Source: Dipetalonema caudispina (lineage: Eukaryota > Nematoda > Chromadorea > Rhabditida > Onchocercidae). Taken from it: a DNA stretch of 64,000 nt. The translations under genes were made by a program, and so were the position numbers. The DNA lies in NCBI GenBank assembly GCA_013365325.1, contig JABVXV010000239.1, positions 1 through 64,000 of the forward strand. The letters run 5' to 3'. Every line of letters starts with the position of its first letter. The stretch's first letter is position 1. The notes beneath the pieces were generated by a model. It was not told the DNA's origin. It saw only the letters and a list, made by a program, of their open reading frames with translations, and made no database searches. Positions 47,624 to 50,611 of this stretch are shown in pieces.

Positions 47624-50611
47624 ATGATATGGGCATTACTGCTGCTACCATTAATTGCAGCACATATCAGGCTAATATATCCACCAACCCGGTATCCATT
47701 CCTGAATTATTCCATCGATAGCGGAAAAAGCCAAGAACCATGTGGTATACCCAAAGATCCAAAAGGTTAACTAATTCATTATTTTTTATTTCGTTGTGCT
47801 ACGTTAAATAATTTAATTTATTTATTACTTCTTCTTTCTTTTTAGCCTTCAACAAATTTAAATATTATGGAACTTTCTTGGAAATTTTCAAGTTTTGAAC
47901 CTTTGTTTGCAAGAAGAGCAAGCCAATTATAAATAATAATACAATTCTACAATTAATAAATAGAAAAAAAAAAGAGAATTGATGATGATAGGATCAAATT
48001 AATTCCAAAATTTTTTTGTGAAATACTTGGAAAAATATGCTCTGCAATACTACCAACTACTTCCTTACTTCCACTGCATCAATTTTAAAATTGAATCAAG
48101 AAAATAAATAAGGAAATTAAAAAAAAATCATCTAAATTCATCTATGAGATAGTTTTTCCTTTTGCAATTTTTTTTTTTTTTTTGTAATGGTTGTTTGCCT
48201 CGTCCTCATTTCATACCTCATGTCTTTCCTAATTTTTCCTTTCAGTGCCATTACAACTTTTTGATGTATGTAAAACCAGTACTGATTAAAAACTACCGTT
48301 GTAATTTGGTTGGAATCAAAGTGAAGTAAGATCTGGCAGCAATTAATAAATTAGAAAGTGGTTGCAATTTCAAAATTAGAGCTAATTAAAATCGTTGAGT
48401 AAAAATATTCTGAAATAATATTTCAGTCGAGGGGAAGAGAACAACGGAACAGAAGTTTTCGAAGTTTTGAAAATTCGTAATTTTGATTTTTTATGAAACT
48501 GGATTTTCAAAATAGTCTTATTAACTAGTTTTTTTTTCATATTTACTTTTCTTTACTTTACAAAATGGTAATGAGTTATTTAAATCTCAGATACATTTTT
48601 TTTTTTTCTTGAAGAAGTCGATCAGAATTAAATAATTTCGGACAACCTATATTTCACTTCATTCATAACAAAATTATTTCACCAATTCGATAATTTTATG
48701 TAGGACTATTTTTTTAAATTATAAATATTGGGAAATTTATGCATGGCAAAAAATTTGTCATTTTTTCATCCCTTTTTTCGTCATAATTCTTCCACGAAAA
48801 AAAATGAAATCTATAAATCGAAATCTACATTTTTTTACTAAAGCAGAAACTTTTATCTTCGATTTAAAAAAATACCTTGAAATTTCAAAGCCGCAAATTG
48901 CAATATAATAGTAGGAAATTCCTTTTTCTTTGATATATATCTCGAAAAAAAATGCTTTAAAATTATATACATGTTAAGCATTTGTTGAAAATTCACGCAT
49001 AAATGACCTTGAGTTGAATGAAACAAAATCCAAGGGCATATATAACGCATAAATTTCATTTCGTTCAAAAAGTTGAAAGGATAAGATAAGAGGTTAAAGA
49101 AGTTCGGTCACTCAATTGGAAATCACAGAAATGTCGCATGTTACACATTGTCATTCTCCTCATCATCATCATTATCATCATCAATAACAACAATATTATA
49201 TGTTATTGTAGCGGAGCTCATAATTTTCAATAAAAAGCGCATTGCGCTTTTTTTTACATTTGAAGAAATACGATTAACATATAATAAATGAAAGGAAAAA
49301 AATAGCAAGATTTTTCCAAAAAAATTACTATGTTGCTGGAATAATAATTTTTACGAAATAATTACTATTTTCCACACATTTGAAAAATAAATATCTATCA
49401 AATACACCTATTTAAAATATTGAATATGTCTAAATAATGACATCATAATTACCTGTAATATTATTAGCACTACTATCCCAACAATAATATTTTGCATTAC
49501 TTTGAGAAATTGTTTATTAATTAGATAGTAATGGTCACTATAAACTAATACTTTCTATAATCATTTTTTCATGCAATATAATATGTTCGCTTCTATTAAG
49601 AAATTACGATAATGCGTACTGTGCATTTACAGTACCCTGTTATCCTAAAAATTTGTTTAGTACAGTATCAATCCTGAAATTAATTCATTTAATTAATTCA
49701 GTTCTAGTTATACTAGTAAATAAACAATTGCTGGGCATATGAATATTTACTTTATCAATTAAATTATTGATACTACTACCATGAAATTTGAATTTATATC
49801 ATATTTATTCATTCCGTTATAGGTATCGTAACATGGCTACGATCCGGCGAAGATGTTAATATCACTTGGTTTCAGTCGATATCTCATAATGTACGGTTTC
49901 GCTTATTCATCAAATGCCTTCGTTCGTAATTTTAATGAAATTTGACATGGATAAAAAAGAATTCAGTTGCTCACAATCTATCATTTCTTTTTTCTCTCGT
50001 TTTTCTTTTTGTAAAATGAACAATTTAAATGAGTAGGTCGAAAGAATTAATTCAAATTGTCATCATTGTTAAAGATTAAATTTAAGGGAAATTTGAAATT
50101 AGAGTTATTGAACGAAATGGATCAAATGATTGCAGTCTTGTCACCAATTACAAATATTAACACCGATGATAGAGCATCGTAATTTTTTCAAATTAACTTC
50201 TTTTATATATCTGACAAAATTTTCATAGCGAAAGTCAATAGAAAATGAATTTTTCTTCTTTACTCAATAAGTAAAAGTTTATTTAGCAAGTGAACATTTT
50301 ATATTCAGTATTTTAGTCTTTGATTGATAATATTAATATTTTCTTGGAAATTCATTAAACAATTCAGATTTACTAGGATTACTTCATACGATATAGCTCC
50401 TTGTTGCAATATTAAATTTGATAAAATAATAATTTAATCTCAACAATTTTTCCAAAAATTCCATGTTATTTCAGGAAAACAACAGCGACAATAATGTTAC
50501 CGAAAAATTACGAATGCTACAATTGTGTAATACGAATTATCCGACAAGCTACTGAAATCGGGAAAATTAATTTATCCTATTACACATGTGCTGATGTGAA
50601 CATTGTCAATG
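47624..50611 (+). CDS. N-terminal domain with putative histidine brace (exons 1-3)
   Basis: MIWALLLLPLIAA is a signal peptide whose predicted cleavage leaves His14 as the mature N-terminus, in HIRLIYPPTRYPF. This resembles the H-x-x-x-x-x-P-x-[ST]-R opening of lytic polysaccharide monooxygenases and related copper proteins. A CGIPKDPKG segment follows, then SGEDVNITWFQSISH with His69 as the possible second copper ligand, FRLFIKC, then YECYNCVIRIIRQATE and YYTCADVNIV (Cys120, Asp122). Exon 2 is extended to the gtaatt donor at 49926 because only donors that end the exon in phase 2 keep exon 3 open; the donor at 49896 is the shorter alternative. Copper binding and oxygenase activity are inference; substrate unknown. 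Confidence 0.62.

Follow-up and report, generated by a model that had tools for sequence, protein, structure and literature searches.

Our analysis supports an N-terminal histidine-brace domain of the lytic polysaccharide monooxygenase (LPMO)/X325 fold in a long predicted gene of the nematode Dipetalonema caudispina, on the basis of its sequence, the conservation of both brace histidines, and the predicted model of a relative from a sponge record; at the motif level, it also supports haem-type DOMON domains in the same chain. The gene starts with the ATG at 47624 on the plus strand of the window, which is the 64,000-base stretch analyzed here (bases 1-64000 of contig C154, which has 98937 bases, in a source genome of 78 Mb and 764 contigs), and ends beyond it at contig position 67349. 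Judged by sequence, the combination of brace, EGF-like, and DOMON domains is an old animal family, extracellular and membrane anchored. We lean slightly toward the view that its members are copper oxidoreductases, with DOMON haem possibly feeding the copper, and that the long filarial copy is degenerating.

Histidine brace at the predicted N terminus

Read from the sequence, the predicted N terminus divides into MIWALLLLPLIAA and HIRLIYPPTRYP, with His14 directly after a 13-residue signal peptide. Exon 1 (47624..47765, plus strand like all features of this gene; donor GTTAAC) encodes this predicted signal peptide and, from His14 (codon 47663-47665) on, the first part of the brace, and the 13-residue spacing is the same in the filarial orthologues P0001, P0002, P0024, and P0027. 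Exon 2 (49823..49890; donor GTACGG) carries His69 (codon 49885-49887, in WFQSISH), the second brace ligand by alignment, and exon 4 (50475..50611) carries C115 and C118, Tyr136 at the axial position (codon 50578-50580), and C139-A140-D141. An earlier, sequence-only reading had reported both histidines, and they stand where it put them; its exon chain was also right in its coordinates but lacked exon 3 (50087..50178; GNLKLELLNEMDQMIAVLSPITNINTDDRAS, with sites AATTTAAG and GTAATTTT), a stretch that is present in P0001 and P0002 and raises both the Pfam and the NCBIfam scores. Once this exon is included, the brace domain extends from H14 to about N146.

H14, H69, and Y136 align with the copper ligands His1 and His91 and the axial Tyr184 of TdAA15A, the insect AA15 LPMO of Thermobia domestica (PDB 5msz), where the pairing with His91 comes from the family profile, whose second His falls on chain residue 91 of TdAA15A and has H69 as its copy in the window. 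The window family appears to match TdAA15A in the N-terminal His, the second His, the axial aromatic residue, and, by a predicted model, the LPMO fold; it differs in length (195 residues in TdAA15A, about 135 here), in its fusion to EGF and DOMON domains, and in missing the PF03067 LPMO_10 cut-off (20.9 bits against 23). The 148-residue domain rises from 28.3 to 32.0 bits with the added exon against PF20238 (BIM1-like_dom; cut-off 27), the family of X325/Bim1 proteins such as LaX325 (PDB 6ibi, 6ibh). The same profile gives 26.6 bits on the relative P0012 and no match with the 1031-residue query or on the relative P0013. Bim1 itself is a fungal, GPI-anchored protein (PMC10952591, excerpt), whereas the window protein is an animal one that has DOMONs and a transmembrane-like stretch. 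The single-domain profile of the bacterial SCE4755 family (NF043005) is matched over positions 7-145 of 146 (E value of 2e-14), and its score climbs from 48.4 to 53.9 bits with the added exon, short of its cut-off of 75; in a six-frame search of the source genome it was silent throughout, without a match.

Kinship of the domain is shown by a profile of 15 relatives (7 named non-nematode animals and 8 metagenome sequences) without any known nematode row, which scores the window domain at 107.0 bits (E value of 3.4e-32). A chance likeness, in which a His after a signal peptide is joined by a stray second His, might be entertained since His is not rare and two of three models miss their curated cut-offs, but it is refuted by the best score of 7.3 bits among 1,000 residue shuffles of the domain and by the retention of both His in many relatives, and we give it next to no weight.

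The LPMO fold is seen in the predicted model of the sponge-record relative P0022, for which a second-look structural aligner finds AA15 as the nearest fold. Foldseek, run on the same model, returned a single match with an E value of ≤0.001, to a chitin-binding domain from bacteria; LPMOs ranked below it, as did many immunoglobulin folds. We therefore base the claim of an LPMO fold on the second-look aligner. A 657-residue hemichordate model was left out, its brace part being poor (blocks with predicted local distance difference test scores of 35 to 87). A PDB search with the single brace domain gave a best E value of 0.17, a PDB search with protein P0067 found no relative, and a prokaryote genome scan with P0067 confirmed nothing.

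The Asp/Cys motif TCADV, which the sequence-only reading had listed alongside the two histidines, is present at 50584-50598, but its Asp is not favoured as a copper ligand because the AA15 alignment points to the aromatic residue three before the Cys (Y136/Tyr184), and the AA15 partner of the Asp is not named as a ligand in the cited text. The domain may nonetheless have an Asp ligand of the X325 type. In X325 proteins, an Asp also binds the copper, according to excerpts of two papers (PMC7529816, PMC10952591).

Gene layout and haem-type DOMON domains

The predicted gene model has 35 exons, 25 of them within the window, with GT-AG introns, and a product of about 1828 residues whose nearest named relatives are filarial worm proteins. 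Its domain order, which sequence comparison establishes, is signal peptide, brace, two EGF, first half of DOMON1, three TIL, DOMON2, DOMON3, second half of DOMON1, DOMON4, SEA, a hydrophobic stretch, and a tail. The two EGF-like modules span exons 5 and 6 into 7 (51329..53788) and score below cut-off (EGF_TEN, 27.7 bits against 65; EGF, 19.2 against 21.5); their Cys pattern is common to most family members. The first half of DOMON1 (53795..56092) ends in GWKP..C, and the second (62485..63154) contains CLDMVIG. Between them (56092-62485) sit the TIL block (56598..58165; PF01826, 65.3 bits in three stretches, over cut-off), DOMON2 (58990..60127), and DOMON3 (60449..61090), a domain-in-domain insertion. 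At the same place, the hemichordate proteins P0012 and P0135 have only about 40 residues, and the scorpion protein P0013 has low-complexity acidic repeats. The first part of DOMON4 lies at 63414..63614; the domain extends beyond the window end, and SEA (29.5 bits; cut-off, 26.4), one hydrophobic transmembrane-like stretch, and the tail come after it on the contig. The model is unsure at 61622-62168 (the end of exon 61479-61638 and exon 61952-62104), where P0001 and P0002 have IDK immediately before VNAS, a junction that this gene could form only with a GC donor. On the 3' side of the gene, near-identical reading frames (NLLIGPTNLGSVRSSSCIVCDM...) lie at about 74562-75030 and 78555-78900 of the contig (L004) and suggest a local repeat.

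The several DOMON domains that the sequence-only reading had seen downstream are confirmed by a profile score of 205.6 bits over three stretches, above cut-off. A Met motif is found in DOMON2, DOMON3, and DOMON4, each with a His at the C-terminal motif, which at the motif level gives most of the DOMONs the Met/His pair typical of the haem b type; DOMON2, recognized by profile and motifs, has TGTM and KHINIPHVS, and DOMON3 has DGQM and GYHDLYQP. The best PDB sequence match of DOMON3 is the fungal cellobiose dehydrogenase (CDH) cytochrome (PF16010 CDH-cyt, 27.4 bits; cut-off, 27), with its Met aligned on the CDH Met, which we take to be the haem ligand there; the residue-level alignment stopped short of the C-terminal His. 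Fungi pair the CDH cytochrome with a separate LPMO, whereas the window gene would carry the same kind of pair, brace and DOMON, on one chain. No flavin dehydrogenase, cytochrome b561, or DM13 domain is among the Pfam matches of the window gene. Other extracellular DOMON proteins of animals are CYBDOM (CG8399/SDR2), whose DOMONs have the same Met/His signature in an excerpt of PMC10691727, and Knickkopf, which organizes chitin according to portions of PMC4140639 and PMC11354708; unlike the window protein, neither has a brace among the domains given for it in those passages. Elsewhere, moulting brings a rise in a Trichinella DOMON protein (PMC6757440, excerpt), and settlement a rise in transmembrane DOMON proteins of coral (PMC3204972, excerpt).

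Conservation and spread of the family

Site counts cover all 140 fetched proteins, counting only sequences whose alignment spans the site, and are biased to good matches because the sequences, many of them metagenome pieces, were found by shared short words. With that bias, the first His is kept in 108 of 109 sequences, with A. viteae as the exception (Y), and the second in 50 of 55. The five that depart are A. viteae (D), Loa (Y), and three sequences, P0039, P0040, and P0046, that seem to owe the change to faulty gene models, as each is disrupted at the intron next to the second His. The conservation of both His that the sequence-only reading would expect of homologues holds for the family as a whole but not for the A. 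viteae and Loa orthologues. The Asp of TCADV is kept throughout (55/55), and at the position three before the Cys, 55 of the 57 sequences have an aromatic residue (F in 50, Y in 5), the other two being A. viteae with H and D. immitis with S. Of the 104 family sequences that start with Met and show the motif, 102 have a small residue (A, G, S, C, or T) just before the first His.

The search for relatives listed the best 120 of 155 matches, and alignments A2, A3, and A4 hold 7, 29, and 29 sequences. Named carriers among the matches listed include nematodes, a scorpion, a mite, Daphnia, an ant and other insects, two hemichordates, and the sponge record (brace); the pairing of brace, EGF, and DOMON is found in nematodes, the scorpion, the ant, and the hemichordates, and several family members end in a transmembrane-like stretch. 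Four short metagenome members, P0137 to P0140 (P0140 without a start), have only brace, EGF, and DOMON1, the first three ending in a hydrophobic stretch, and are perhaps the core form of the family. The Nahoda-like protein of Saccoglossus kowalevskii (P0135, 661 residues) belongs to the same family, with brace, EGF, DOMON1, and DOMON2; it differs in having neither TIL nor extra DOMONs between the DOMON1 halves, and our search turned up no function to go with its name. The fly nahoda gene presumably belongs to this family as well. Two published gene lists give nahoda as a Drosophila gene. The Dirofilaria immitis DOMON/TIL protein P0011, whose gene model is without the brace start, is publicly named Teneurin-a, perhaps from its EGF modules.

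The pairing of brace and DOMON has already been glimpsed, since a 2019 LPMO profile tree (PMC6950343, excerpt) is described as having, among its early branches, one that contains DOMON/EGF and LPMO_10 sequences. Our literature search, with most subscription journals outside its coverage, found no paper that describes this family in animals, the brace that it carries, or its haem residues, none under the name SCE4755, and, judging by titles, none on the biochemistry of nahoda.

Losses in filariae and the possible role of the brace

Several observations weigh against a copper oxidoreductase at work in the window gene. DOMON1 has Ile (62479-62481) where relatives have Met, and the His of YHG is missing, as it is in the other two full-length filarial models; in A. 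viteae, none of the three brace positions is kept (Y, D, H), and in Loa the brace is half lost, with Y at the second His. Cercopithifilaria, A. viteae, Elaeophora, and Loa models share the equally short signal peptide, with Tyr for His in A. viteae. Moreover, fungal Bim1, whose brace is similar, is not redox active in vitro and releases copper with H2O2, according to an excerpt of PMC7529816. The working, self-contained redox system that the sequence-only reading had envisaged is not upheld for this gene: from its sequence, constraint on the long gene seems to have eased in filariae at the brace and at DOMON1, and with DOMON1 haem residues lost and the brace lost in some species, the enzymatic role of the window copy may therefore be weak. 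The same genome has a second brace-EGF-DOMON gene on the minus strand of contig C2 (about 157800-152600; L005), with a signal peptide, HVALTF, YPH, GGY (one exon further on), FRSCADV, two EGF, a DOMON1 that retains MDC and YHG, and a hydrophobic stretch. Its brace pieces are 49 to 56% identical to the scorpion protein versus 41% to the window gene. With the residues of both the brace and DOMON1 retained, this second gene is more likely than the window gene to be the functional copy.

These losses could mean that the filarial N-terminal domain is a relic or plain binding module, with the protein acting in adhesion or the matrix via DOMON2-3 and TIL and the brace under relaxed selection, a reading that we find credible though not the one to expect. 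In the brace, the window protein is 77 to 83% identical to the other two filarial models of full length, against 94 to 98% in DOMON2 and DOMON3 (80% and 95 to 99% between those two models), which fits such a relic. In strongylids, the values are 78 to 82% for the brace and 78 to 91% for DOMON2-3. However, other parts of the filarial protein are about as variable as the brace (TIL, 83 to 84%; DOMON4, 80 to 82%; SEA, 82 to 83%; second half of DOMON1, 75 to 78%); the window species and Cercopithifilaria keep H14, H69, and Y136, Elaeophora fragments likewise show H, H, and Y, and the explanation is inapplicable outside filariae.

By analogy with Bim1, the brace might instead take extracellular Cu(II) to a membrane importer without oxygenase activity, while the DOMONs reduce or position the copper; we regard this as rather unlikely. 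The Pfam match is to the BIM1-like copper acquisition factor family, Bim1 takes part in copper uptake without being redox active (excerpts of PMC7529816 and PMC7924993), and the window protein has a transmembrane-like stretch. However, the nearest solved structure, whether judged by sequence or by a relative's fold, is the active LPMO AA15, and the axial position of the window domain is aromatic, as in LPMOs. The oxidoreductase, carrier, and relic readings overlap, and the likelihoods that we attach to them are to be taken in that sense.

LPMOs are usually separate secreted proteins that receive electrons from small reductants or partner enzymes. For the oxidoreductase that we favour, signal peptidase would free His14, whose amino group and ring, together with His69, would bind copper as in LPMOs; a small reductant or the b-haem of a DOMON could reduce this copper, by analogy with CDH and LPMOs, and the reduced copper, reacting with O2 or H2O2, might then act on a polymer of the matrix close to the cell surface. 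We speculate, tentatively and with more doubt than belief, that the family is an ancient single-chain copper-haem oxidoreductase of animals, in which the brace is coupled to a b-type DOMON cytochrome of the same protein, that it is anchored at the cell surface and modifies the matrix or cuticle of the animal itself, and that in filariae it is being dismantled at the DOMON1 haem residues and the brace.

Animals are known to have AA15 LPMOs, and X325/Bim1 proteins are listed under fungi in a review table (PMC10952591, excerpt); the window family would stand between the two. A conserved animal chain with a brace and haem-type DOMONs would test whether one extracellular polypeptide reduces its own copper site, and the filarial losses would serve as a natural experiment for assigning functions to the parts.
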